Shown here: positions 19,601 through 45,270 of the stretch, piece after piece | How positions within the stretch are numbered: the first letter of the stretch is position 1 | Layout: every line of letters starts with the position of its first letter | Virus record (IMG/VR): IMGVR_UViG_3300015194_000003 | Location: 1 to 46,287 of that record | Length of the DNA: 46,287 nt | Source of the DNA: a virus | Strand: one strand, 5' to 3' | Translations under genes and position numbers: made by a program | The notes under the pieces: generated by a model | The model's database searches: none | What the model saw: only the letters and a program-made list of their open reading frames with translations | Told to the model about the DNA's origin: nothing

Positions 19601-21321
19601 GTCGGTGCTACGTCTGGCGGCAGAAGTTCCGGGCACCAGACCGAGGGACATACGGACTGACGGTGGAGGCCGACGGACGGATCAGGCCGTGCCGGATCCT
19701 CGACGTGATCGCCCAGGGCGACGCCCAGACGTTCACCGTCACCCTCGCCGACGGCAAGCACCTCACCGCCACGGCCGACCACAAGCACTTGACCCCTGAC
19801 GGCCTGCGTCGGGTGGACGAGTTGGCCGTGGGAGACCTGCTGATCACCGACGCTGGTTACGAGATCCGCACCTATGAGCCCACCGATGCTCGCACGACGG
19901 TCGGTGAACGACGGGGGGTCGGAACCGTCAACGGTGCGTTCGGTTCGGACAACTACGGCTACATCGACGGTGGGTTCGCGGCCTTAGAGGCTTGGACCGC
20001 CCAGGCTCCAGATCACTGCGAGGACTGCGGGGTCAGTGCCTCAACCCACCTGATGGAGCGAGCCCACCTGGACGGCAACCACGCCAACAGCCACGACTGG
20101 TCCAACCTGCGGATGCTCTGCCTGTCTTGCCACCGCAAGCACGACTATGCCTACAACGGTCGGCAGCGACGGTGGGGCAAGGGACACCCCATCTCAGCCG
20201 TGCAGATCGTCTCCATCGAGGCTCGTGCGGTCGAGCCGGTCTACTCGGTGGTGATGGACGACCCGCACCTGTGGATTGCCAACGGGATCGCCACCTCCAA
20301 TTCCTTCGGCAAAGCCCACGCATACGGCTATGCCGTGTTGGGTCATTGGACTGGATGGTTGAAGATACATTACCCGGCGCAGTTCCTGACCGCTTGGCTC
20401 TCGACAGTGGACAAAGCCCGGATCCCGGAGTTCGTCACCGAGGCCCGCCGGATGGGCTACGCGGTGCGCCCGCCCGACGTGAACCTCTCCGGGGTGGGGT
20501 TCGCCACCGACGGGGTCCACGTCCGGTACGGGCTGAACTCGGTCAAGGGCATCGGGGATTCCGGGGTCAAGGCCGTCATGGCCGGTCAGCCGTACACCTC
20601 GTTCGCGGACTTTATGGACCGCAAGGGCTCCGGGGCCAACGCCGGGGTGATCAAGACCCTGGCCGCCGTCGGCGCGTTCGACTCCCTGGAGCCGGACCGC
20701 AAGGCGCTGGAGCGCCGGATCGACTTCGCCACCTCCGGGGAGGCCGACCGTTGCCTGCACCAGAACGACTCCGCGCTCGGACCGGGTGGTCTGCCGTGCA
20801 CCTTCGACTGGGCCACCGAGGTGGACCCGCCGATGGTCTCCAAAGGCCGGGGCAAGGACAAGGTGGTCACGGCCAAACCGCCACCCAAGCGCTGCACCCG
20901 GTCCTGCCGGAACTTCACCGCTCCGCTGCTGTCCGCCAGCACCGACGTGGCCTACACCGCCAAGGAGATCCGGGACCGGGAGATGGACCTGCTGGGGATC
21001 CACCTGTCCTCCACCCCGTTCGACGTCATCCCGGCGGAGATCCTGGCGAACGAGTGCGCCGACGCTGAGCAGATCGACCAGGGGCCGTCCGGGGCCTACC
21101 TGGCAGCGGTCACGATCAGCCGGGTGAAGGCGCACACCACCAAGACCGGCAAGCCGATGGGGTTCTTGACCATGCTGGCCCAGACCGGGGAGATCGACGT
21201 CACCGTCTTCACCGAGGAGTGGCACCGGCTGGCTGATCTGCTCAAGCCCGGGGTGCTGGGGTTCGCCTACCTGAACAAGAACGACCGGGGGATCACCCTC
21301 ACCGACCTGCTGCCCATCTGA
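16666..21321 (+). CDS. dnaE: DnaE-like DNA polymerase III alpha subunit, split by an HNH intein
   Basis: 1551 residues from ATG 16666 (AAGGGA upstream), about 1252 after splicing. The PHP domain begins at HLHLHSEASPMDG near residue 144, with TDHG. The polymerase core has GRGSGGGSLV near 516, PDFDVDF near 560 carrying two catalytic Asp, and FDLLTLRNL near 720. The intein interrupts the conserved FAKY/SFGKAHA motif. After it come helix-hairpin-helix-like sequence and a C-terminal OB-like region (AAVTISRVKAHTTKTGKPMG). A Cys set (CLHQ, LPC, CTRSC, about 1363-1417) is an unusual zinc-knuckle-like insertion. It copies phage DNA with DnaB and primase; no epsilon or clamp gene is seen here. Confidence 0.92.
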   Translation: MQLIETYPQSGDDPQVAEVDGRTFALPCLVEDDHGVRLLLTFIADDAVVLRVPVHVWAAAHAAGAAALVDSRTNRWMLAETFIAGRAEHPASASYLAPDDWSAPQDTLPTSYVQMRSRAAQRAATQATEAVADPAGFVHLHLHSEASPMDGLSTVTEIVAQAVRHGQHAVAVTDHGVCASHPHLQIAAAKAGIKPIFGIESNFVEDRFLRGDPEFAKMPEDPRNSRKILGDYRHLVLWAMDDAGLRNLWAMSTEANLDGFYGRPRMDWDTLVKHNAGVMASTACLRGPLAQALLAGDEIGARSTLARLMEIFGDRLYVEIHTNQLPDQIRLNHLLVALAAEYDLPLIAAVDSHYPCKEDAETHRVWLAAQTNTDLTDDTGLFTGAQDYSIMSETEVREALAYLGPEVVDLAIANTAVVAARCTAVVAGKTSTPVYSKVGGEQRDVERRVDLCLSNWDAKVVGKARPEAEYAARFEREMKLLVEKKFCGYFLIVSDYCTAAKAGRIGGKPIITGPGRGSGGGSLVGFLSSITDIDPVDADLLFERFMTDGRVGLPDFDVDFPASGREPLMGYLAEKYGEDHILKVGTHIRLQNKGVVRDLARVLKNTIDIHYPDIDAVCKIIEAAEADSAGLGMAWEDLWAQHGDLLGPYRVKYPVLFHHADKMVGRLKAYGQHPSGVIISTDTALVGSLPMRMAGTSKADRKAVAEFDLDALEALGYVKFDLLTLRNLDSIQVAVDLIHDTHSTDIDVYDWTQEYLDPQVWGEISDGHTLGIFQIETSTGTRMAKRFRPQSLQDLADVMTLVRPGPMRSGLTETYLRRKEGLEEITYADPRMEPILAKSLGCMLYQEDIMAVCMVLAGYDSNEADTVRKILGKKQVEKVAAAGLKFVAAAVKNGMQREVSEHLWEQMSEFAKYCVSGDTLVHLAASGRYSDGTVTVSELHRRINAPLLPATRRGARPYAGPCVVCGATAGQGFTRGACGRCYVWRQKFRAPDRGTYGLTVEADGRIRPCRILDVIAQGDAQTFTVTLADGKHLTATADHKHLTPDGLRRVDELAVGDLLITDAGYEIRTYEPTDARTTVGERRGVGTVNGAFGSDNYGYIDGGFAALEAWTAQAPDHCEDCGVSASTHLMERAHLDGNHANSHDWSNLRMLCLSCHRKHDYAYNGRQRRWGKGHPISAVQIVSIEARAVEPVYSVVMDDPHLWIANGIATSNSFGKAHAYGYAVLGHWTGWLKIHYPAQFLTAWLSTVDKARIPEFVTEARRMGYAVRPPDVNLSGVGFATDGVHVRYGLNSVKGIGDSGVKAVMAGQPYTSFADFMDRKGSGANAGVIKTLAAVGAFDSLEPDRKALERRIDFATSGEADRCLHQNDSALGPGGLPCTFDWATEVDPPMVSKGRGKDKVVTAKPPPKRCTRSCRNFTAPLLSASTDVAYTAKEIRDREMDLLGIHLSSTPFDVIPAEILANECADAEQIDQGPSGAYLAAVTISRVKAHTTKTGKPMGFLTMLAQTGEIDVTVFTEEWHRLADLLKPGVLGFAYLNKNDRGITLTDLLPI
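19405..20301 (+). other. DnaE intein with HNH endonuclease (299 residues)
   Basis: It begins at Cys914 (CVSGDTLVHL), has block B as ATADHKHLT, and ends VYSVVMDDPHLWIANGIATSN before Ser1213. The penultimate residue is Ser where most inteins have His. An HNH-type endonuclease lies inside (CEDCG, then AHLDGNHAN, NLRMLCLSCHRKH). Removing it restores FAKY-SFGKAHAYGY, the DnaE motif normally written as FxxYxFNKSHA. Confidence 0.9.
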
Positions 21322-21344: not shown

Positions 21345-22595
21345 ATGCCCTCGGCAACGTCCGTCCCCACCCAGTCCGGCCCACCGGTGCTGCCTGCCCC
21401 TGCTGTGGCGGCCAAGGCCCCCAAGGCTGCCCCCAAGGCTGCCCCGAAGGTGGCCCCGAGGAAGAAGTCGCCCGCCAAGCCGACCGCCGCCGCCACCCGG
21501 GCGATCACCGACTTCGAGGCCCGGTTCGCCAAGACCTTCGGGGCGGGCACCCTGGAGGACGTCACCGTCCGTCCCTACGAGGTGATCTCCTCCGGCTCGC
21601 TGTCCTTGGACTACGCCCTCGGGGTGGGCGGTTTCGTGGAGGGCCGCCTGGTCGAAATATGGGGAAATGAGGCAATCGGGAAGTCGACGCTGGGCCTGTA
21701 CCACCTCGCCGCCGCCCAGCAGAAGCACCCGGCCAAGAAGGTGGCCATCATCGACGTGGAGCACAAGATCGACCTGGCCTGGGCCGAGGTGCACGGGGTC
21801 AACCTGAGGGGTCTGTACCTGTACCACCCGGCCAACGCCGAGGACGTGGCCGACGCGCTCAAAGAGTTCATCCGGTCCGGGATCGTCAGCGCCGTGCTGG
21901 TGGACTCCATCGGGGCGATGATCCCGGAGGCGGAGAAGGAGAAGGACGCCGACAAGGTGGTGATGGCCCTCCAGGCCAAGATCGTCACCCGGATGGTCAA
22001 GATCGCCGCCTCGGAGGCCCCCAAGACCGGGGTCTCGGTGGTGGTCATCAACCAGGTCCGCGCCAACCTGGCCTACGGCGGGACCACCACCACCAGTGGG
22101 GGGTTCGCGCTCAAGCACGCGACCACGATGCGGTTGAAGGCCAAGCGCACCGGCACGCTGCCGTTCAAGGCCAAGGTCGGTGGGGAGGACATCATCGTCG
22201 GGCACGAGGTGGCCATCTACGTCGAGCGCAACGGCGTCGCCCCGGCGTACAAAACAGCCATCGTGACATTATTTAATCAAGAGACGGAAAAGTACGGACC
22301 GGTGGGGATCGACAAGGCCGACGAGACGGTCACGATGGGTCTCAAGACCCACGCCATCGCCCAGCGCGGGGCCTGGTACGACACCCCGGACGGGAAGTCC
22401 TACCAGGGCCGCCCGGCCCTCGTGGACGCCGTGCGCGGGGACCTGACCCTCCAGGACCAGATCTCGGACCTGGTGCTCGCCACGGTGGCCTCCACCATCA
22501 CCGAGGAGGTGGACCCCGAGGAGATCGACCCAGACCCGGAGGCCGTCATCTCCCCGAAGTTCCGCACCACCGCATCCGTGGAGGCGGCGTCGTGA
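21345..22595 (+). CDS. recA: RecA-family recombinase with basic N-terminal extension
   Basis: 416 residues from ATG 21345; an in-frame TTG at 21333 is the alternative. Walker A is GNEAIGKST (107-115), Walker B is AVLVDSIGAM near 183, and loop/sensor sequence VVVINQVRAN lies near 230. The core is RecA-like ATP-dependent strand exchange. The first ~50 residues are a low-complexity Ala/Pro/Lys tail (KAPKAAPKAAPKVAPRKK), like histone H1 or actinobacterial nucleoid proteins, probably adding nonspecific DNA binding. The end overlaps the next GTG by GTGA. No intein is present at the Walker A site, where mycobacterial RecA inteins sit, but that stretch is A+T-rich. Confidence 0.88.
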   Translation: MPSATSVPTQSGPPVLPAPAVAAKAPKAAPKAAPKVAPRKKSPAKPTAAATRAITDFEARFAKTFGAGTLEDVTVRPYEVISSGSLSLDYALGVGGFVEGRLVEIWGNEAIGKSTLGLYHLAAAQQKHPAKKVAIIDVEHKIDLAWAEVHGVNLRGLYLYHPANAEDVADALKEFIRSGIVSAVLVDSIGAMIPEAEKEKDADKVVMALQAKIVTRMVKIAASEAPKTGVSVVVINQVRANLAYGGTTTTSGGFALKHATTMRLKAKRTGTLPFKAKVGGEDIIVGHEVAIYVERNGVAPAYKTAIVTLFNQETEKYGPVGIDKADETVTMGLKTHAIAQRGAWYDTPDGKSYQGRPALVDAVRGDLTLQDQISDLVLATVASTITEEVDPEEIDPDPEAVISPKFRTTASVEAAS

Positions 22596-24685
22596 TCGCT
22601 ACCGACGATAACTTCGGCCGGTTCGTGTTCGTTGCCCCACCGGCACCCGCCATCACCACGAGGCCCGTCGTCGCCCCGGCGGCGGAGGTGGTTGCCGTCC
22701 TGCCGGTCCAGCGCTCCCCTGAGGTGATCCGGGTGCCCCTGGCGCCCATCGCGGTCATCGAAGTGCCAGCGGTCACCATCGCGGCGCCGGTAGACCCGAT
22801 GCCGTTCACTGAGCCCGACCCGGTCCTGGTGATCGAGGTCGAGGAGGCGCTGGTTGAGGTCGTCGTGGCTCCCACCGAGCCGTACTACGCCGACGACCAG
22901 GTGACGCTTTGGCACGGCGACTGCCTCGACGTGCTCCGCGCCATGCCGGACGCCTCGGTCGACTCGGTCGTGACCGACCCGCCCTATGAACTGACCAGCG
23001 GCAAGAAGGGTGGCTCGGGCATCGCGTCCCTCAACCTCAATTCGCCCGCTGGTCGAGCGCGTATCAGCACGGGTTTCATGGGCAATGCCTGGGACGGGAC
23101 GGGTATCGCGTTCCGGCCCGACCTGTGGGCTGAGTGCCTGCGCGTGCTCAAGCCGGGCGGGTATTTGCTCGCGGCGGGAGGCTCGCGCACGTTTCACCGG
23201 CTCGCGAGCGCGGTCGAGGATTCAGGTTTCGAGATTAGAGACTGCATCACTTGGCATTTCGGGTCGGGTTTTCCGAAGTCGCGGAATATCACTAGGGACT
23301 TGCATTCACTCCCACCGTGTTCGTGTGATGTTCCGAACCAGTCCGGGACCGTAAATACCGGTATTCCATCTAGCCTTGTTCGAGCAGGAGTAGGAACAGA
23401 AGATGGAGCGGTGTCGCTTACAGGGCCTTCCGCAGACAGCACAGGCGGGGTACGGGCGCAGGTGGTCCCCGCTAGTGCGGCGGACCAACGGTGCGTAAAT
23501 GTGAATACCCTGGACGAACAGAGCGTCGGGGAGAGCCCTCCAGTAGTGCTCAGGGCGTCTACCATGACAAGTGGCGCAGAGAGTGAGCAGATTTGCGGCA
23601 GCGTTAGCCGAGTCAAGGTCGATCCAGAAGCGCTGAGGGATGAGGTGGTGCGCAATCAAGCCATCCTCCGTGCCGCAGTCACCACACCTCCCGTCGCGCT
23701 CGATGATTCCAGCGGAGACGGTGGCCCATTGCCTGCCCTTGTACTTCCACGTTCCGCCGCGCCAAGCGGGGTTACCGTCGCTGACCATGCGGGTTCTGTA
23801 GTCAGCGGACATGCACGCCCGACCGCAGTAGACACCCCGGTCGGTCCAGTTCCGGAACGCGACTCCGCAGACAGTGCAGACATGGACCCGGTTGCCCTTA
23901 CTTCTCATGTAGTCAAGGTTACCGCCAAGCGCGCATTCCGGTGCGAGGTGTGTGGCGGCGTGGCTGGTCAAATCACAGAGGGGCTGGGGACGGCACTTAA
24001 GCCCGCTACCGAGTTCTTTACCGTCGCTCGCAAGCCTCTGATCGGCACAGTCGCGGCGAACGTGCTCGCGTTCGGGACCGGGGCGCTAAACGTGGACGGG
24101 TGTCGGGTGGCCACGGCCACGGATGACGATATTCATGCGAAGAACCCACACACCACAGGTGGTTTTGGGCACGCTGATGCCTTGGTGTACGGAACCTCTA
24201 GGGGTGCAGATGCCTATGACCCCTCCAAGGGCCGCTGGCCGACCAACGTCCTCCTGGACGAATCTCAAGCCGCCGCACTGGACCTACAGACCGGCACGAG
24301 TGTGTCGCGCACTGGCAAGCCGCGCGGAGCAGCGTCCGGGGAGGGCTGGGGCATGACGGCTACGGGTGCCGAGTACGCGGACTCTGGTGGGCCATCACGC
24401 TTCTTTCCCACATTCAAATACCAGGCAAAAGCGCCCACCAAGGAGCGCCCCAAGGTGGACGGAGTAGCACATCCCACCGTAAAACCACTCGAATTGATGA
24501 AATGGTTGGTGCGGCTGGTCACCCCTCCCGGAGGGGTGACGCTGGACCCGTTTGCCGGGTCCGGTACCTCGGGCGAGGCGGCCATCGCGGAAGGCTTCCG
24601 GTCGATCCTGATTGAGCGGGACCCCACCTACCTGCCGCTGATCGTGAAGCGGCTGGATTTGACGATCGAGGAGAAGGACCTGTGA
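22592..24685 (+). CDS. DNA N6-A/N4-C methyltransferase (beta class), interrupted by an antisense HNH gene
   Basis: 697 residues from GTG 22592 (GTGA overlap). The first 95 residues are Pro/Val/Ala-rich. The enzyme begins at VTLWHGDCLDVLRAMP. Catalytic motif IV is DPPY (129-132), followed by VLKPGG, then HPTVKP and SAM-binding motif I FAGSG (654-658), the order of beta-class amino-methyltransferases. Between residues ~233 (FPKSRN) and ~461 (GLGTALKPATEF) an atypical stretch appears with different codon use. It is the antisense of an HNH endonuclease gene. Whether this stretch is translated, spliced out, or kills the enzyme is unknown. Confidence 0.85.
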   Translation: MIATDDNFGRFVFVAPPAPAITTRPVVAPAAEVVAVLPVQRSPEVIRVPLAPIAVIEVPAVTIAAPVDPMPFTEPDPVLVIEVEEALVEVVVAPTEPYYADDQVTLWHGDCLDVLRAMPDASVDSVVTDPPYELTSGKKGGSGIASLNLNSPAGRARISTGFMGNAWDGTGIAFRPDLWAECLRVLKPGGYLLAAGGSRTFHRLASAVEDSGFEIRDCITWHFGSGFPKSRNITRDLHSLPPCSCDVPNQSGTVNTGIPSSLVRAGVGTEDGAVSLTGPSADSTGGVRAQVVPASAADQRCVNVNTLDEQSVGESPPVVLRASTMTSGAESEQICGSVSRVKVDPEALRDEVVRNQAILRAAVTTPPVALDDSSGDGGPLPALVLPRSAAPSGVTVADHAGSVVSGHARPTAVDTPVGPVPERDSADSADMDPVALTSHVVKVTAKRAFRCEVCGGVAGQITEGLGTALKPATEFFTVARKPLIGTVAANVLAFGTGALNVDGCRVATATDDDIHAKNPHTTGGFGHADALVYGTSRGADAYDPSKGRWPTNVLLDESQAAALDLQTGTSVSRTGKPRGAASGEGWGMTATGAEYADSGGPSRFFPTFKYQAKAPTKERPKVDGVAHPTVKPLELMKWLVRLVTPPGGVTLDPFAGSGTSGEAAIAEGFRSILIERDPTYLPLIVKRLDLTIEEKDL
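23306..23908 (-). CDS. HNH homing-type endonuclease gene inside the methyltransferase gene
   Basis: 200 residues from ATG 23908; an upstream TTG at 23971 would add 21. Three zinc-type Cys clusters are visible: CTVCG...CGRAC at the N-terminus, the HNH core CGDCG...LIAHHLIPQRF...LLTLCATCHGRRPEH, and CAVCGRPC...CSYSC at the C-terminus. HNH enzymes cut DNA with a His-metal site and are typical mobile genes of phages. The gene lies entirely on the opposite strand of the methyltransferase with codons in exact register, so the sense frame stays open as long as TTA, CTA and TCA codons are avoided. The base composition is less G+C-rich than the flanks. Confidence 0.82.
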   Translation of the reverse strand: MRSKGNRVHVCTVCGVAFRNWTDRGVYCGRACMSADYRTRMVSDGNPAWRGGTWKYKGRQWATVSAGIIERDGRCGDCGTEDGLIAHHLIPQRFWIDLDSANAAANLLTLCATCHGRRPEHYWRALPDALFVQGIHIYAPLVRRTSGDHLRPYPACAVCGRPCKRHRSIFCSYSCSNKARWNTGIYGPGLVRNITRTRWE

Positions 24686-36993: not shown

Positions 36994-39900
36994 ATGACGA
37001 CACTGCGAGCGACCAAGCACATCGCCTCCCTGCCGGGTCTGCACCTGCACCTGCTGCCCGAGGACGACGCCGAGGCCCTGGCGCACCTGCTGCGGGTCCA
37101 CAAGCCCTCCAGGACGGCCTCAGCGGCCGACGACGCGGACCCGTTCAACCGGGCCGCGCTGCACGCCGTAGCGTCTGACGGTGGCTTCACGGTGCACGAC
37201 CACATGGGGGACGGGCCGACCTCCGGCTACATGGTCTCCCTGTCCAAGACCAGCGAGAAGTCGATCCCGCTGGCGAACCTGGCGGCGGCCGACATCACCG
37301 CCTACCGGACCAGGTATGCCACCGCGCTCAAACGGGCCGACTGCTACCTCGGGGCCTGGGTGTTCGAGGGCAACGTCTACCTGGACGTCTCCCAGCACGT
37401 CGGCGACCGTACGCATGCGATCGACCTGGCCCACCAGCGCGACCAGTTGGGCATCTTCGACCTGGGTTCGATGAGCACCATCGACACCCAGATAAAGTCC
37501 ACCGCCGGACGAAAGATCGCCACGATCACCGGTCGGGGCGCGGCCTGGAGCCAGCACACCGCCGGGGCTAAAGGCGAGGTCTTCGTCGCTGCGGACGGCC
37601 AGTCCTTCGACCTGGTCCGCACCCTTGGAGAACGTCTAGTCCAGGCCACTGTAGATGGGATCGAGGCTGGCTTCCTCGGGTGGACACAGCACGGCACCGT
37701 CGGCATGGTCATGGTCCACGACCCCTATCGCCGCCTCGGTATCGCTTCCGCCCTGCTCGCCTTCGCGCGCCGGGTCTCGGGGGAGAGCATCGAGCACTCC
37801 GAGTCCTTCACGCCCGACGGCGAGGCCTGGAGCCAGCATGTCGCCGGGGCTAACGGCTCGCTGCCCATGGACCTGCGCCTGGAGGTCAAGCCGAACCGTC
37901 GCGGCGTGCTCGCCTGGCTGCCTGGGGCCCAGATCAAAGAAATCACCGACTACGGAGCCGCCCCGACCGAGGACATCATGGTCGGGGAGTTGAACTGGAC
38001 CGACGACGGGATGATCTCCTGGGTCGTCGTCTACTACGAGGAGTTCCGCCGCCGGGGCCTAGCCGACGCCATGTGGGGACTGGCCAAGGCCACCGACCCG
38101 CGAGTGCACCACTCCCAGGCCCGCAGTGAGTCCGGCGACGCCTGGGCTCGCAGCACCGGCGACCGACTGCCCCGGCTGAACAACACCGCTGCATTGTCGA
38201 CGGTCTACTTCCACGCCTCCCCGACGGCGATGCCGGTGGGCACCGTGATGCATCCCGACCCGGACAAGCGGTTCCCGCAGGCCGATCCGCACCAGGTCTA
38301 CTTCACCCCTGACCCTTGGGTCGCGCTGCTGCACCACGGCGGCATCACGGCCTACATCGACGGTCGCACGCACCTGTACAAGGTCGAGCCCCTCGGTGAG
38401 ATCGAGGACGACCCCGAGGCTGTCGTGGCAGGCAAGCGGGGCCAGTCCTTCATGGCTTCCGGTGCGCGCATCTTGGCCGAACTGACCGGTGACGCGGGGA
38501 CAGCGCTTCTCATGAAGACCTCACTCCGGTCCATGGCGGTGTCCTGGCGAGATCGGGGAGCCCAGCCGACCGGCGTGGACGCCTTCATCTCCCCCGATAC
38601 CGGACGCTCCCGGGGGAACCTGTACAGCGTGTGGCTGTACGGCTCGATGGAGGCCCGGTTCCCCCGACTCAAGCAGGCCCGGGAGTACGTGGAGGCGATC
38701 TACGGACCGTTGACCTGGGAGAAGGTCAAGGGCGACCAGATGCCCCATTATGACCAAGTTTGGGGCCAAACAACCGAGTTCAACGATTCCTCTTACTTTA
38801 TGGTAGTTCGGCACCTACCCCGGCTCGGTGCGCAGGCATCGCTCAAGGTCGCCGTCGAGACCGGCGTCTGGTATCACACCGGTGATCCCAGCCGGTGGCA
38901 GCAGGGCCAGTATTCGCACCTCGGAACCATGAACTCCGTGCTGGATCGCCGGATGAAATACCCGACCCGGGGCGTCTGGAAGATCACCATCAACCCGCGT
39001 CACCCGCTGAACACCCCAGCCACCCCGCTGGAGGACTTCGAGGCGAACATCCTGGGCGAGTGGATGGTGATGTCCCACGGCTCGGGTGAAGCACCCGGGG
39101 ACAAGGTGCAGGGGCTGCGCTACGACGGCGACGTCAAGGACGTCATCGCCAAGACCGGCTGGACCCCCGCCACCGACGCGATCTACTACTCCAACTTCGT
39201 GGAGGGCAAGGGCGACGTCTCCGTGATGGTGCTCGCCTCCGCCGTGGTGGCCAAGAAGGAGATGATCGGCGACCAGGAACCTCTGTGGGGCAGCACCGAC
39301 CAGTTCGGCTTCGCCGCCGCCAAGACCGCCAGCACCCCGGGCAGCCTCATCGCGCGCGGGCTGACGATGGAAGTGGACCAGCACTGGCTCGCCCTCAAGG
39401 CCGAGGCGGGCACGCTCACCGCCCAGGACATCCTCGCCGCCCTGCACTTCATCGACGGCCGAGTCGGAGAGTGGTGGGGGATCGTCGGGTCCTTTGACGA
39501 CCTGGACGGCTGGAAGAACGACTGGGGTCACGTCGAGGACGACGAGACCGTCAAGACCCTCCTGGCGGAGTACGACGACTATCCGAACATCCACGGCACG
39601 ATGGGCATCGTGCTGGTCGCCAAGCGGCCGATCTTCAACGGCAAGCCGTGGGACCCCGACGACGTGGACGACGACGCTCGCGGGTACGAGATTCATCCGC
39701 TGATGGGCAACTCCGGCCTGCCTACTTCGGCCCGCGACGTCGACCTGGTCGAGATCCACTACAACGCCGGGTGGGGCTGGAAGACCCTGCCCGCCACCGG
39801 GATGCGCGCCAAGGCTGCCAAGGGCGACGGCATGGACACCTGCAAGTTCTGCGGGTCAAACGACCTGTGGGGCAACCACTTCGACGCCGACGGCAACGGA

Positions 39901-42900
39901 ACCGAAGGTGACCAGGGGGCCTGGGACCTGCTCTGCGAGCAGTGCGGCAAGTTCCAGATCCGCCGCAACCGCAAGACCACCGCGCTGACCACCACCGCCT
40001 ATGGTCCGCACCAGACCGACGTGTACAAGGCAATGGATTTGGTCCGCCCGTACGCCATGTCGGTGTCCGTGGACGGCTGCGAGGGGACCATCCGGCGAAT
40101 CCTGACCACGGAGGGCTACCCGGCCAAGCAGGCCGAGCAGGCCTACGCCGTCGAGCGGGGCACATACGGAACGTCCTCGGTAGCCTGGGATACCAGCGCA
40201 AACCCGGCCATCCCCTTGGTCGCCTTCGGCGACGGGATGAAGGACGAACTGACCCTGCTGCACGAGTGCGCGCACATCCTGCGCAACGGCCCGTCTTTCG
40301 CGGTCGAGGACAAGGTCAACGGTGGTCACGACGGACGGTGGATGGCGACGTTCTCCGCCCTGGTGCAGAAGTACGCCACCCGGCATCTGCGCGACCAGTT
40401 CAACGAGGTGTTCGGTAACGGCACCGGCGGCCTGGACGCCAAGTGGGCCAAGACGGCCGGGCTGACCACGACGGCGATCGGCACCTACCAGACCAGCATC
40501 TACCAGGCCCAGGTCGAGATCCGCGTGGTCGCCAAGAAACTGTCCATGGACCAGGCCGGGGATCTGGCCCGGCGAGTGCTGGTCGAGGCAGGCTTCCCCG
40601 ACGCCGACGAGGCCTACGCCGTCTCGCACCCGCATGGGGGTGGCCGGTCCTCGGTGGCCTGGGGTCGCGACGAGGACCGGCCCGGCATCATCATTCCGTT
40701 GGTGGCCCTGGCCACCGACATGATGGACGAATTGACCGTGCTGCACGAGTGCGCGCACATCCTCTACAACGGGGTGGCGCTGCGCGGCATCCAGAGCACC
40801 GACGTCGCCGAGGGCGGGCACAACGGGGGATGGCTCAAGGTCTTCTACGACCTGGTGCAGAAGTACGCCACCGCCAGGATGCGCGAGAAGTTCAACCAGG
40901 TCTTCGGCAACCACTTCATCGGCGGCGTGGACAGCCGGTGGGCAGCCAAGACGGCCGGGCTCGGCGACGACCTGCTGTTCCGAGGCATCAATCGCACCGT
41001 GCCGGTCGAGGTGTGGGAGCAGATGCAGGCCGGGAGCGCCGACGCGCTGCTCGACTTCCTATCCTTGGGCCGGGGGTCCATCGGCAACGTCGACAGCATC
41101 GGACTGCACTGGACCCCGTCGCCCGCGCGCGCCGAGTTGTTCGCCCGCCCCAAGGCTCCGTTCTGGCAGGACGGCTGTCCCTGGGTCTCGATGATGCTGA
41201 CCGCCCGGGTGCCGCTAGACCAGCGCCTGGACCGCAGCGACCCCCGCTGGAGCACCTTCGTGCCCGACGCGCTGGAGTACGACGTCGAGGACGAGGTCGC
41301 CCTCGCACCGGGCACCTCGATCACCATGGTCAACGTGCATTACTGGGACGAGCGCGGCCAGCGCAAGGTGCTGCGCACCTCTCAGCAGGTCACCTCCGCT
41401 CGGGACTGGACCGAGTTCCCGGACCCGGCGGGCATGGTCATCCAGGGCGGCGGTGACGCGGTCCCCGGCGGCTACAACGGTTTCTTCGCCGTCTTCGACC
41501 GCGCGTCCGGCAAGCGGATGGGGTACATCGACTACCAGAGCGCCCGCGAGGACGGCGTGGTAGACGTGAAGATCGGCATGGTCGAGGTCGAGCCGGAGTA
41601 CCGGCGCAAGGGCATCGCCACGCTGCTGTTCAAGCGGCTCCAGCACGAGTTTCAGGGCGTCAAGATCGACCCCGGCTACACCACCGACGACGGCACCGGC
41701 TGGTGGCGCGCGGTCGCCAAGACGGCCGCTCGGGTGCGCGAGCACGTCACCATGGTGGACGGCGGCGTCCGCCACGATATGCACACCGTGCTGGCCCAGG
41801 TCGAGGGGGAGACCATCGGTTACCTGCTGTTCGCCGACTGGGGCCCGGGGCTGGTCACCGACGACGTGGACGGCAAGCACGTCGACGTGCCCGGCAACAC
41901 CCTGCCGGTGGACGGCGTCATCACGTCCGTCGGTGTGGATGAGGAATTCCGTCGCCAGGGCATCGCCACCGACATGCTGGCCTTCGCCCGCACGCTGCTG
42001 CCCTCCGTGCACCACAACACAGACCTGACCCACGACGGCCGAGCCTGGAGCCAGCACGTCGGGGCGCTGGTGGACACCGACTTCGAGGGCACGGTCGGCA
42101 GCCGCAACCACATCACCCGCACCTCGACCGGCACCGTGCCCACCTCCTCGGTCGCGCACCTCCTCGGTCGCGCGGGGGAGAAGCCGGGCGAGCACCGCAA
42201 CAAGACCGGCCCGGTCTGGGACGCCTTCCTGGCCGACATCAAGGCCAACGGCATCACCAGCCCGATCTTCATCACGGTCGACTACTACCAGGAGCCGAAT
42301 ATCTCCGAAGGCAACCACCGTCGCGACGCCGCCGTGGAACTGGGCCTGGCTGAGGTGCCCGTCGAGGTCCGCTACTACGGGCACGCCGAGCAGTTGGTCA
42401 CCCTCGGGGCAAAGACGGCTGCGATGCCTGCTGGGATCGAGTTCGTCCAGATGTCCTGGGGCGGGACCGATGGCGTGCACGCCTACATCCCGGGGCCTGG
42501 GGAGACGCCGGGCATCCAGTCCTACATCGGTGGGCACTCGACCGGGCTCGGGCACCTGTACTGGTACCCACGCGCCGGGGTGGACGACAACGACATCCCG
42601 CACCAGGCCTTCGAGATCTCGCTGGTCGACGTCAAGGCGCAGTACCGCCGTCAGGGCGTGGCCAAGGCCATGTTCGAGTTCGCGTTGACCATCGAGCCCC
42701 GGCTGCACCACTCCCCGGTGCGCTCGGACTCCGGGGACGCCTTCGCCCGGTCGATGGACCCCTCGCTCGCCCCGCGTGCGTACACCTACGAGTACGGCGT
42801 CTCCGACCCGGTGAAGGTCACCGCAGCAAACTGGACGCGCGGTTTCAACGGCGACGGCAAGACCCAGTACGAGTTCAACAAGCCCTACATCGGCATCGGG

Positions 42901-45270
42901 CTCGACGGCCCGATGGGGCTGATGTTCGGCGACAAGACCCGCGCGCAGGTGCCGTGGCAGGGCGACCTGGCCAAGTCGATCAAGGAGGCCGAGGCGCTCG
43001 CGCAGCGATTCTTCGGCGAGGACACTTGGCAGCAGTCGGTGAAGAACTCGGACAACGGCTACGTCCTGATCGTCGGGTCGAACGACACCTCCCGCACCAT
43101 CGCGGTGGGCAAGGTGCTCGGCCAGTGGGGTCCGCCGGTGGAGATCCGGGGATCCCACAAGGAGGTCTGGCCCGGCTTCATGGATAAGATCCGGCGCGAC
43201 CCCAAGGGTGCCTGGACCGAGTTCTGCCAGGTGATCGCCGACTCCCAGCCGCCCGGCTTCGACACACACCCAGACCTCGGCTCCCAGCCGGAGAAGAAGG
43301 TACTGATCTACCGTGGCATCACGCTGATGCCCGGCGACAACCCGGCCACCGCCGTCAACACCGGCCGGGGCGGGTCCGGCATGGGTTCGTCCTGGACGCT
43401 GTCCCTGGACGCGGCCCAGTCCATCGCCGAGCGCGGCGGGGCGGGCTTCGGCAACGACAACGGCCGCCGAGGCCAGCGCACCTTGATGAAGGCCATCCCG
43501 GGCAGATCCAACCCGAGTGTCCCAGTGGTCATCCGCGCCGAGGTGGACCTCAACGCCCCCGGCATCTCGCTCTACACCGACGGCCGGATGTACTACGCCT
43601 CCGAGCAGGAGGTCAACGTCGATGCGGGCACCACGATCAAGGTGACCGGATACGCCGTGGCCGAGATCGTGCCGGAGTCCAAGGCCGACCAGGCCAAGGC
43701 GCTGGAGGTCGCCAAGGTGACCCCCTACGAGGACGGCGCCTCGTACTGGGCCTCCTACCGCTGGGGCTCGTTCTCCGGCGGCGGACGTCGGCAGGCCAAG
43801 ACGGCCAGCGCGGGCCAGTATGTGCGCGGCTTTCCTGGACGGCTGAACCCCGGGGAGGCAGTCAAGTTCCTCGCGATGATGAACTCCGGCGACCTGCGCG
43901 GTGCGGGCATGATGCTGGCCAAGTTGTTCGAGCAGGCCCGCGACCAGCCCGGCGGTTGGTCGCGGGGAGGGATGGGGCATTGGTGGGCCCCGATGTCCAC
44001 CGCCTACCAGGTGGAGGGCTTCGGCGGCGAGGGCACCCTCGGCATCCAGAAGGACGATACCTTCGGCGGGGAGACCTACCTCGGGCTCGACCTCGGGATG
44101 CTGTGGACCGGCACGCCGCAGGGGCCACCCGATTTCCAGGACACCTCATTCCCGTCCGGCACCGAGTTCGTGATGGACCAGGTCCGGGTCTGGTGCTGGG
44201 ACAAGCCAGCCTGGGGGTACACGACCCGCACCTCGGGCAAGTGGCTCACCCTGCCTCTCGGTGGGCTGCGCGTGAAGGCCGCCGAGACCGATTACAGCCG
44301 CCGCCACCAGCCGCAGGCCCCCGAGGACGAGGACTCTGAGCCGATCTGGGACATGGGCGCCGTGATGTACCCCAAGGACGTCTACGACCGCCCTGGGCTC
44401 TACCCCGACGGCAACGACCGGGAGTTGCAGGCCACCCTGCGCGCGGTGCGCGGCAAGCCGGACGCCACGCTCATGATCTACCGCGCGGTGCCCATGAGCG
44501 CCACCGTGATCGAGCACGGCAACTGGGTCACCATCTCTCGGGCCTACGCGCAGCGGCACGGCGAGGCGGGCAATGCCGGACCTTCCTGGCACATCATCGA
44601 GACTCGGGTGAAGGCATCCGACGTCTACGTCGGGGACGGCAACTCCCTCGCAGAGTGGGGATACTGGGGGCCTTCGATCACCGTGCGTACGGCGTCGAAG
44701 CGAACGGACATCGTCGTGCAGGCGACCGAGCGCGATACCGGGGTCATGATTTGTCTGACACCGCCGAAGTCGGTCAGCACCCTGCTGGTGAACCAGAAGA
44801 CCACCACCGAGGCCCTGGACGAGCAGCACATCACGCTGCTGTACCTGGGCACCACCGATGAGGTGGACCACGACGCCCTGATCAAGGGGGTCGAGGACTG
44901 GGCATCCACGGCCGGAGTGATCGCTGGGTCCCTCACCGGCTACGGCACCTTCGAGAACCCTGACGAGAACGTCCTGTACGCGGCGTGGGACCTGACCGGG
45001 GGCAAGGAATGGCGCACCTCCCTGGTGGACGCCCTGCGCGCGGTCGGGGTGGAGAGGGAGTCGGACTACGGCGAGTGGGTCGCGCACCAGACCCTTGCCT
45101 ACGCCGATGATCCCTTCACCCGACTCCCGACCCTGCCCAAGGGCCTGCCGGACGAGGTCGTGTTCGGGTCGGTCTCGGTCGCCTTCGGCCCGGACTGGAC
45201 CACGTACTCGCTAAAAAGCGGTCATACCTCACGGACGGCTCATCTTGTCAAGGGCCAATATCCCGCCTAA
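36994..45270 (+). CDS. giant 2758-residue polyvalent protein (GNAT, ADP-ribosyltransferase, peptidase, ParB-like and 2H domains)
   Basis: ATG 36994, with GAAGAAG upstream. Approximate domain order: GNAT-like around residues 190-290 (RRLGIA) and 290-390 (RRRGLA); Arr-like ADP-ribosyltransferase 402-500; a possible second ART 612-770; zinc ribbon 949-985; two HECAH peptidase-like repeats 1003-1312; ART-like 1320-1465 (LFRGIN); GNAT-like 1470-1575 (RRKGIA) and 1575-1690 (RRQGIA); ParB-like 1700-1800; GNAT-like 1808-1925 (RRQGVA); ART with YRG...SSWTLS...EQE 2100-2260; another ART-like 2425-2565 (IYRAVP, GNWVTISR); 2H phosphoesterase 2570-2740. Short AKTA linkers separate many units. This matches 'polyvalent proteins' of phages, which are packaged and injected with the DNA. 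Processing into parts is inferred. Confidence 0.82.
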   Translation: MTTLRATKHIASLPGLHLHLLPEDDAEALAHLLRVHKPSRTASAADDADPFNRAALHAVASDGGFTVHDHMGDGPTSGYMVSLSKTSEKSIPLANLAAADITAYRTRYATALKRADCYLGAWVFEGNVYLDVSQHVGDRTHAIDLAHQRDQLGIFDLGSMSTIDTQIKSTAGRKIATITGRGAAWSQHTAGAKGEVFVAADGQSFDLVRTLGERLVQATVDGIEAGFLGWTQHGTVGMVMVHDPYRRLGIASALLAFARRVSGESIEHSESFTPDGEAWSQHVAGANGSLPMDLRLEVKPNRRGVLAWLPGAQIKEITDYGAAPTEDIMVGELNWTDDGMISWVVVYYEEFRRRGLADAMWGLAKATDPRVHHSQARSESGDAWARSTGDRLPRLNNTAALSTVYFHASPTAMPVGTVMHPDPDKRFPQADPHQVYFTPDPWVALLHHGGITAYIDGRTHLYKVEPLGEIEDDPEAVVAGKRGQSFMASGARILAELTGDAGTALLMKTSLRSMAVSWRDRGAQPTGVDAFISPDTGRSRGNLYSVWLYGSMEARFPRLKQAREYVEAIYGPLTWEKVKGDQMPHYDQVWGQTTEFNDSSYFMVVRHLPRLGAQASLKVAVETGVWYHTGDPSRWQQGQYSHLGTMNSVLDRRMKYPTRGVWKITINPRHPLNTPATPLEDFEANILGEWMVMSHGSGEAPGDKVQGLRYDGDVKDVIAKTGWTPATDAIYYSNFVEGKGDVSVMVLASAVVAKKEMIGDQEPLWGSTDQFGFAAAKTASTPGSLIARGLTMEVDQHWLALKAEAGTLTAQDILAALHFIDGRVGEWWGIVGSFDDLDGWKNDWGHVEDDETVKTLLAEYDDYPNIHGTMGIVLVAKRPIFNGKPWDPDDVDDDARGYEIHPLMGNSGLPTSARDVDLVEIHYNAGWGWKTLPATGMRAKAAKGDGMDTCKFCGSNDLWGNHFDADGNGTEGDQGAWDLLCEQCGKFQIRRNRKTTALTTTAYGPHQTDVYKAMDLVRPYAMSVSVDGCEGTIRRILTTEGYPAKQAEQAYAVERGTYGTSSVAWDTSANPAIPLVAFGDGMKDELTLLHECAHILRNGPSFAVEDKVNGGHDGRWMATFSALVQKYATRHLRDQFNEVFGNGTGGLDAKWAKTAGLTTTAIGTYQTSIYQAQVEIRVVAKKLSMDQAGDLARRVLVEAGFPDADEAYAVSHPHGGGRSSVAWGRDEDRPGIIIPLVALATDMMDELTVLHECAHILYNGVALRGIQSTDVAEGGHNGGWLKVFYDLVQKYATARMREKFNQVFGNHFIGGVDSRWAAKTAGLGDDLLFRGINRTVPVEVWEQMQAGSADALLDFLSLGRGSIGNVDSIGLHWTPSPARAELFARPKAPFWQDGCPWVSMMLTARVPLDQRLDRSDPRWSTFVPDALEYDVEDEVALAPGTSITMVNVHYWDERGQRKVLRTSQQVTSARDWTEFPDPAGMVIQGGGDAVPGGYNGFFAVFDRASGKRMGYIDYQSAREDGVVDVKIGMVEVEPEYRRKGIATLLFKRLQHEFQGVKIDPGYTTDDGTGWWRAVAKTAARVREHVTMVDGGVRHDMHTVLAQVEGETIGYLLFADWGPGLVTDDVDGKHVDVPGNTLPVDGVITSVGVDEEFRRQGIATDMLAFARTLLPSVHHNTDLTHDGRAWSQHVGALVDTDFEGTVGSRNHITRTSTGTVPTSSVAHLLGRAGEKPGEHRNKTGPVWDAFLADIKANGITSPIFITVDYYQEPNISEGNHRRDAAVELGLAEVPVEVRYYGHAEQLVTLGAKTAAMPAGIEFVQMSWGGTDGVHAYIPGPGETPGIQSYIGGHSTGLGHLYWYPRAGVDDNDIPHQAFEISLVDVKAQYRRQGVAKAMFEFALTIEPRLHHSPVRSDSGDAFARSMDPSLAPRAYTYEYGVSDPVKVTAANWTRGFNGDGKTQYEFNKPYIGIGLDGPMGLMFGDKTRAQVPWQGDLAKSIKEAEALAQRFFGEDTWQQSVKNSDNGYVLIVGSNDTSRTIAVGKVLGQWGPPVEIRGSHKEVWPGFMDKIRRDPKGAWTEFCQVIADSQPPGFDTHPDLGSQPEKKVLIYRGITLMPGDNPATAVNTGRGGSGMGSSWTLSLDAAQSIAERGGAGFGNDNGRRGQRTLMKAIPGRSNPSVPVVIRAEVDLNAPGISLYTDGRMYYASEQEVNVDAGTTIKVTGYAVAEIVPESKADQAKALEVAKVTPYEDGASYWASYRWGSFSGGGRRQAKTASAGQYVRGFPGRLNPGEAVKFLAMMNSGDLRGAGMMLAKLFEQARDQPGGWSRGGMGHWWAPMSTAYQVEGFGGEGTLGIQKDDTFGGETYLGLDLGMLWTGTPQGPPDFQDTSFPSGTEFVMDQVRVWCWDKPAWGYTTRTSGKWLTLPLGGLRVKAAETDYSRRHQPQAPEDEDSEPIWDMGAVMYPKDVYDRPGLYPDGNDRELQATLRAVRGKPDATLMIYRAVPMSATVIEHGNWVTISRAYAQRHGEAGNAGPSWHIIETRVKASDVYVGDGNSLAEWGYWGPSITVRTASKRTDIVVQATERDTGVMICLTPPKSVSTLLVNQKTTTEALDEQHITLLYLGTTDEVDHDALIKGVEDWASTAGVIAGSLTGYGTFENPDENVLYAAWDLTGGKEWRTSLVDALRAVGVERESDYGEWVAHQTLAYADDPFTRLPTLPKGLPDEVVFGSVSVAFGPDWTTYSLKSGHTSRTAHLVKGQYPA
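38200..38490 (+). other. Arr-like ADP-ribosyltransferase domain
   Basis: Within the giant protein: YFHASPTAMPVGTV, then QVYFTPDPWVALLHHGG and YKVEPLGEIEDDPEAV followed by an alanine-rich ARIL. This is the pattern of rifampin ADP-ribosyltransferase (Arr), which transfers ADP-ribose from NAD+. Rifampin is not the likely target here. Confidence 0.65.
40000..40935 (+). other. tandem pair of HExxH metallopeptidase-like domains
   Basis: Two related ~150-residue units: TTTAYGPHQTDVYK...LLHECAHIL...GGHDGRW and TTTAIGTYQTSIYQ...VLHECAHIL...GGHNGGW. HECAH (His at about 1090 and 1251) fits the zinc-peptidase HExxH motif, with GGHxGxW offering a third ligand. They are diverged duplicates. Confidence 0.65.
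42090..42400 (+). other. ParB/sulfiredoxin-like domain in the giant protein
   Basis: FLADIKANGITSPIFI, then ISEGNHRRDAAVELG and VPVEVRYY match the ParB N-terminal layout, where GxHR binds nucleotide. It follows a GNAT unit and precedes AKTA. Confidence 0.65.
44690..45225 (+). other. 2H (LigT/RNA-ligase-like) phosphoesterase domain at the C-terminus
   Basis: Two HxTL motifs, HITLLYLG (His2612) and HQTLAY (His2698), 86 residues apart, mark a 2H phosphoesterase. The family opens cyclic phosphates of RNA or cyclic nucleotides. It is followed by only ~60 residues to the end. Confidence 0.75.

Follow-up and report, generated by a model that had tools for sequence, protein, structure and literature searches.

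How does a phage make use of a single 2758-residue protein that strings together many unrelated enzyme-like units: as one multi-headed molecule, or as a precursor that is cut into its parts? The question is raised by a giant open reading frame (ORF) at the right end of a 46,287-base virus record, the whole of which we analysed and refer to here as the window. The best explanation that we can offer is that a phage with a head of the E3/Bixzunavirus/Stormageddon type encodes a giant polyvalent effector polyprotein.

Genomic setting and relatives

The window is a fragment of a large actinophage-like virus, and it contains a gene module for replication and recombination (helicases, primase, DnaE-type polymerase, RecA/UvsX-like recombinase, resolvase, Cas4-like exonuclease, and methyltransferases); capsid and maturation protease genes are absent from this 46-kb fragment. 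That the giant ORF is phage-encoded is seen from its virus record, from the phage replication genes in the window, and from relatives that have a major capsid protein (MCP) and maturation protease. The uninterrupted frame described in the initial annotation is intact (Table 1), with codon-position GC of 0.65/0.47/0.91, typical of coding DNA in the window. It follows a GHKL-like ATPase of 697 aa and a methyltransferase of the D12 class, previously noted as a GHKL ATPase and Dam; both are present, the ATPase as a match under Pfam's cut-off (HATPase_c_3, 9e-5) with no close relative found in an IMG/VR search, but a link of either to the giant protein was not found. Elsewhere, the DnaE-type polymerase probably contains an intein (window 19723-20292), where Pfam Intein_splicing matches below its threshold (3.6e-5) and PHROG hits to HNH endonucleases lie close by. 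A DNA methyltransferase of 697 aa (window 22592-24685) matches its profiles over residues of about 95-232 and again over 478-695, with a possible insert in between.

The giant protein has no close relative in IMG/VR. A polymerase search retrieved five IMG/VR contigs at about 50% identity. Two large ones among these, G003 (146,650 bases) and G005 (155,979 bases), encode MCPs about 60% identical to that of phage E3, and G003 also encodes an E3-type maturation protease (about 40%). Each has a giant ORF behind a 689-aa gene; these are positional counterparts of ours with shuffled domain order. The G003 protein (about 1.9 kaa) carries unit Q (Table 1), several GNATs and, judged by sequence, nucleotidyltransferase-like and ParB-like units, and the G005 protein (1494 aa; L035 8807-13291) carries NUDIX, HExxH, and 2H units together with units like ADP-ribosyltransferases (ARTs), ParB, and nucleotidyltransferases. 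The G005 NUDIX unit (4.6e-12) and its nucleotidyltransferase-like unit, 42% identical in G003, are both unseen in the window protein. Among isolated phages, Rhodococcus phage E3 gp70, annotated as a structural protein, resembles residues 197-310 of the chain; its gene (L015 29160-32319) is frameshifted in the public record, the frame changing in the C-terminal part. The cargo proteins of the relatives map to the head region.

Enzyme-like units along the chain

At least twelve enzyme-like units had been claimed for the chain, and this multi-enzyme reading holds: with several unrelated effector-type enzymatic domains in one polypeptide the protein is a polyvalent protein, and by sequence we distinguish about 18 units, counting the zinc ribbon. 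Not in the earlier list were two units (63-156 and 786-933), the zinc ribbon (940-993), and the [KR]TA motif at junctions discussed below. GNAT, Arr-type ART, twin HExxH, and 2H units are confirmed, the ParB-like and further ART-like units being weaker; profiles detect GNAT, Arr, and 2H similarity, and no known structural-protein family spans the frame.

The RR(x)G(I/L/V)A cores lie at residues 246, 352, 1537, 1653, and 1885, and the five GNATs are backed by profile (Pfam Acetyltransf_7, 1.6e-17) and by alignment of the five copies with one another and with GNATs of Cane17 and Kashi; as a search query this alignment was too diverse and was dropped. Upstream of GNAT 1, the stretch ITGRGAAWSQHTAGAKG (window 37525-37575) repeats the DGxAWSQHVAG tail seen behind GNAT domains, and it looks as if a GNAT had been lost there with its tail alone remaining. 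The 2H phosphoesterase, with HITLLYLG at 2612 and HQTLAY at 2698, scores 31.7 bits against a cut-off of 27 and is 36% identical to the G005 giant protein. The HECAH motif occurs at 1090 and 1251, as had been reported, and the YRG-type motifs take the forms FRG, YRG, and YRA at 1329, 2106, and 2496. The N-terminal phrog_3170 unit is 40% identical to E3 gp68 and 35% to Cane17 gp96.

Among the proposed ARTs, the Arr-type unit stands, barely passing the Arr-ms cut-off of 25 when searched alone (25.7 bits; 21.0 with the full chain); several of the other ART assignments come from motifs or from similarity to phage proteins that carry no annotation. No Pfam profile passed its cut-off for the two HExxH units or for units J, O, P, and Q, their basis being likewise motifs and phage-protein homology, and units O and P found no match in the phages searched. 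The proposed ParB domain is homologous to phage proteins, since together with GNAT 5 it forms a pair shared with the ParB-GNAT proteins of Cane17, Kashi, and Tonenili, but it scores 18.2 bits against the ParB_N cut-off of 26.3 and is hence called ParB-like only. Unit Q occurs by itself in Phabba gp212, and the G003 giant protein has it at its N-terminus. PHROG 2579, to which it belongs, is labelled "ParB C-terminal domain"; the shared part (window 44320-44670; L039 42092-42586) reads YRA..., G-[DN]-W-V-x-x-S, E, which looks like ART, and the ParB label may stem from fused proteins.

No stretch of the chain matches PDB sequences. AlphaFold gave pLDDT 42 for units J and GNAT 3 and 64.5 for unit F, the latter with no significant PDB fold; an ART fold is thus no more than a candidate for units E, F, J, O, P, and Q. 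Unit F was found among IMG/VR sequences only in Stormageddon and Tonenili, and in none of the bacterial genome contigs; plasmids matched only units Q and 2H of the chain.

Table 1. Features of the giant ORF (window coordinates), with leader-bearing proteins of isolated phages in the last row
Feature	Coordinates	Strand	Basis or remark
Giant polyvalent ORF, 2758 aa	36994..45270	+	ATG start, no internal stop
Putative N-terminal leader, aa 1-42	36994..37119	+	Ends PSRTA/S, the chain's first [KR]TA; inferred
Putative cleavage site RTA/S, aa 40	37111..37119	+	Before phrog_3170 unit, E3 gp68 reads RRTAS, Cane17 gp96 YRTAV
N-terminal unit, aa 63-156, phrog_3170 family	37180..37461	+	phrog_3170 4.5e-11
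GNAT 1, aa 209-285	37618..37848	+	Profile, GNAT alignment, phage homology
GNAT 2, aa 300-387	37891..38154	+	GNAT alignment, phage homology
Arr-type ADP-ribosyltransferase, aa 404-484	38203..38445	+	Pfam Arr-ms
Unit E, aa 618-776, possibly ART-like	38845..39321	+	Sequence only; no Pfam match
Putative cleavage site KTA/S, aa 777, before unit F	39322..39330	+	TAS invariant in three phages
Unit F, aa 786-933	39349..39792	+	Conserved in Stormageddon gp20 and Tonenili gp97
Zinc-ribbon-like unit, aa 940-993	39811..39972	+	CxxC...CxxC visible; weak Pfam
Zincin-like unit 1, HECAH, aa 1000-1145	39991..40428	+	Motif
Putative cleavage site KTA/G, aa 1153	40450..40458	+	Motif; G005 RSTAA at equivalent junction
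Zincin-like unit 2, HECAH, aa 1158-1304	40465..40905	+	Motif; 25% identity to HExxH unit of G005 giant protein
Putative cleavage site KTA/G, aa 1319	40948..40956	+	Motif
ART-like unit J, aa 1329-1455	40978..41358	+	ART-GNAT stretch resembles Tonenili gp97 (E 4e-4)
GNAT 3, aa 1497-1570	41482..41703	+	Profile, GNAT alignment
Putative cleavage site KTA/A, aa 1576	41719..41727	+	Motif
GNAT 4, aa 1596-1693	41779..42072	+	Profile, GNAT alignment, phage homology
ParB-like unit, aa 1735-1800	42196..42393	+	phrog_6218 2.8e-4; homologous to Cane17 gp71, Kashi, Tonenili
Putative cleavage site KTA/A, aa 1807, ParB/GNAT junction	42412..42420	+	Tonenili RTAG, Kashi and Cane17 RQAG
GNAT 5, aa 1840-1921	42511..42756	+	GNAT alignment, phage homology
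ART-like unit O, about aa 2090-2260	43261..43773	+	Motif only: YRG ... SSWTLS ... EQEV
Putative cleavage site KTA/S, aa 2269	43798..43806	+	Motif
ART-like unit P, aa 2272-2427	43807..44274	+	Motif similarity only
ART-like unit Q, aa 2443-2559, phrog_2579 C-terminal family	44320..44670	+	phrog_2579 7.1e-34
Putative cleavage site RTA/S, aa 2565, before 2H	44686..44694	+	Solo 2H proteins of Stormageddon and SCentae start with RTAD
2H phosphoesterase, aa 2580-2740	44731..45213	+	PF13563 (2_5_RNA_ligase2); two H-x-T/S-h motifs
Putative cleavage site RTA/H, aa 2747	45232..45240	+	Weakest: no G/S/A after A
Leader-bearing proteins (Phabba, SCentae, Cane17, Phrappuccino)	L039 42092-42586, 27449-29341; L038 37393-39522, 45095-46597; L010 3369-5252, 5245-6546, 15940-16563; L011 38600-41866		

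A recurrent motif at the junctions

The tripeptide [KR]TA occurs nine times in the giant protein (Table 1) versus 1.84 expected, a count of at least nine being reached in 0 of 20,000 shuffles, and AKT and KTA are within its top three over-represented tripeptides. All nine sites fall outside domain cores (chance 8e-4), which for this comparison were drawn conservatively and cover 55% of the chain, and in eight of them G, S, or A follows. With the same following residues, the permuted forms [KR]AT, T[KR]A, TA[KR], and AT[KR] are absent, and A[KR]T is found seven times because the sites read AKTA. Linker composition as a source of the motif was thus ruled out, permuted residue orders not being enriched. 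The 23 other window genes tested contain eight [KR]TA versus 6.8 expected, none of them followed by G/S/A.

Homologous junctions in other phages retain the motif. The entry to unit F reads KTAS, RTAS, and RTAS in the three phages, although their linkers are neither of one length nor of one sequence. Tonenili gp97 resembles the giant protein on a smaller scale and has RTA(G/S) at three junctions, and the G003 and G005 giant proteins keep KTA or RTA at some junctions, a few sites only. The strict motif stands at nine of about 18 junctions in our chain, the others showing variants (QHVAG, RQAG, KVA, KAA) or nothing clear, so that strict cutting would leave some multi-unit pieces, for example one of 737 aa. 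Substitutions at equivalent places, such as window VKAA for Phabba WRTA before unit Q, RQAG or RTAG for KTAA between ParB-like unit and GNAT, and RSTAA for KTAG before the zincin, suggest a looser rule, for example [KR]xA, at some junctions.

The motif in head proteins of isolated phages

In phages E3, Cane17, Stormageddon, and Phrappuccino, which have this head type in common, the four-residue form [KR]TA[GSA] occurs 38 times in head proteins versus 3.1 expected, and not once in their tail and other proteins (24,166 residues; 4.05 expected), with permuted motifs near expectation. The head set comprised the block around the portal, protease-scaffold, LysM protein, and MCP, plus cargo proteins; this split by gene position was made after part of the four-phage data had been seen, and the Fisher P value for the contrast (1e-12) overstates independence because homologous head proteins share sites at homologous places. 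As part of the data was known before the motif was fixed, SCentae and Phabba were then taken as additional phages: with the motif fixed beforehand, they have 14 sites in head proteins versus 1.5 expected and five in other proteins versus 2.35 expected, three of these five being in proteins that bear a common N-terminal leader. SCentae gp97 (1837 aa) was considered as another giant and rejected, being a collagen-like, tail-type protein instead.

Within the head set, the scaffold portion of the protease-scaffold fusion is rich in [KR]TA sites, and they also occur in the solo 2H protein, the protease, and the LysM protein, which need no inter-domain linkers. The relatives' MCPs are without the strict site, and the phage G MCP in PDB has a full-length N-terminus that gives no clue to processing.

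The leader, of the type TAREQ-x-x-x-L-x-PW, starts several cargo-like hypothetical proteins of Phabba, SCentae, Cane17, and Phrappuccino that are encoded away from the head block (Table 1), and in Phabba gp212 and SCentae gp108 it runs straight into RTA, reading LAPWRTA. By analogy with T4, it looks like a candidate capsid-targeting leader that would be removed at RTA. The window protein is without a leader of this type; it has SRTAS at residue 40.

Proposed processing and alternatives

That head proteins of related phages have this motif too suggests that the capsid protease releases the units, and with the motif at the junctions a processed polyprotein becomes more likely than a single multi-headed protein. 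We consider it probable, from these sequence patterns, that the giant protein is a head-packaged polyvalent polyprotein cut by the capsid maturation protease into effectors that are ejected with the DNA. It would be synthesised as one chain and taken up by the assembling prohead, where the protease would cut between units, behind K/R-T-A. GNATs, ADP-ribosyltransferases, zincins, the ParB-like unit, and the 2H phosphoesterase would then be present in the capsid as enzymes of their own, which upon ejection may modify host proteins and RNA, or counter defence. Counting against this are the junctions that lack the strict motif, the small number of sites in G003 and G005, and the MCPs: those of the relatives have no strict site, and that of phage G is not shortened at its N-terminus. 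With slightly less confidence, we lean towards a general form of this proposal: a true polyprotein strategy in a double-stranded DNA phage, by which the maturation protease would free at least nine effectors from one chain inside the head, and a (K/R)TA/(G/S/A) code that would mark head cargo in actinophages of the E3, Bixzunavirus, Myrnavirus, Stormageddon, and Phrappuccino types.

A conventional polyvalent protein would be packaged and ejected uncut, its [KR]TA stretches being mere linkers. There is precedent in P1 DarB (250 kDa), recovered as a head protein with an N-terminal packaging signal (PMC9024508), and in the polyvalent proteins with 2-15 domains already known (PMC5512222). Yet linker composition would not fix the order of the residues. 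The four-residue form is absent from non-head proteins of four phages, and the motif also occurs where no inter-domain linker is needed. We regard an uncut chain as unlikely. Less likely still is that the embedded HExxH units cut the chain themselves, either before it is packaged or once it has entered the host. Iyer et al. (PMC5512222) proposed such a processing role for metallopeptidases embedded in other polyvalent proteins; the chain has two zincin-like units, and the G005 giant protein has one as well. Against this, Tonenili gp97, Stormageddon gp20, and E3 gp68 have the junction motif with no HExxH unit seen, and head proteins that are not related to zincins are rich in it. We give equally little credence to a third reading, by which the motif would serve head retention or targeting through binding to scaffold or capsid, and would be repeated along the cargo and not cleaved. 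Its association with head proteins as a class, and the motif-containing leader that begins several cargo-like proteins, are what such a signal would predict, but it lies strictly between units, where targeting would not need it at every junction; the known T4 and P1 targeting signals are single and N-terminal; and the protease-scaffold fusion is rich in sites in its scaffold portion, a region that T4-like proteases cut repeatedly.

If the proposed cutting is correct, it would account for the working of a chain of 2758 residues whose targets are not all in one place, and (K/R)TA/(G/S/A) becomes a sequence rule for spotting ejected effectors. The motif would then predict packaged and ejected effectors throughout a large, well-isolated actinophage group in which most proteins are labelled "hypothetical", and proteomics on existing stocks of M. 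smegmatis and Gordonia phages could address the old question of what is injected.

Comparison with known systems

We found no description in the open-access papers searched of a capsid protease that frees multiple enzymes from one chain. T4-type proteases cut head cargo and scaffold at short motifs, and the T4 Alt and internal proteins and SPN3US ejection proteins are a parallel to the case proposed here: within the head, the prohead protease processes them at a short motif (AXE in SPN3US), and they are ejected; the identified SPN3US cleavages, however, the protease's own aside, all give N-terminal propeptides (PMC10052503), not several mature enzymes. P1 DarA, DarB, and DdrB are likewise large head-packaged proteins with antirestriction roles, some of them processed, and DarB has an N-terminal packaging signal (PMC9024508), but multi-site release of enzyme units is not reported there. 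Closer in content are Tonenili gp97 and Cane17 gp71 (Bixzunavirus, annotated as hypothetical), which have ParB, GNAT, unit F, and ART on a single polypeptide whose junctions read RTA(G/S) or RQAG, though at no more than 751 aa they have few units and are without HExxH, Arr, and 2H. Eukaryotic RNA virus polyproteins also carry several enzymes per chain, apparently separated by recurring protease sites, whereas here the virus is a double-stranded DNA phage, the protease is unrelated, and the cargo is thought to be delivered by the virion. The kind to which the giant protein belongs is that of the polyvalent proteins of phages and conjugative elements described by Iyer et al. in 2017, with 2-15 domains and embedded metallopeptidases proposed for release (PMC5512222): it shares with them the long, phage-borne mix of ART, GNAT, metallopeptidase, ParB, and 2H domains and the presumed injection. 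It differs in having about 18 units joined by a motif that head proteins of related phages share, and what is new here is a testable candidate cleavage code at the junctions.
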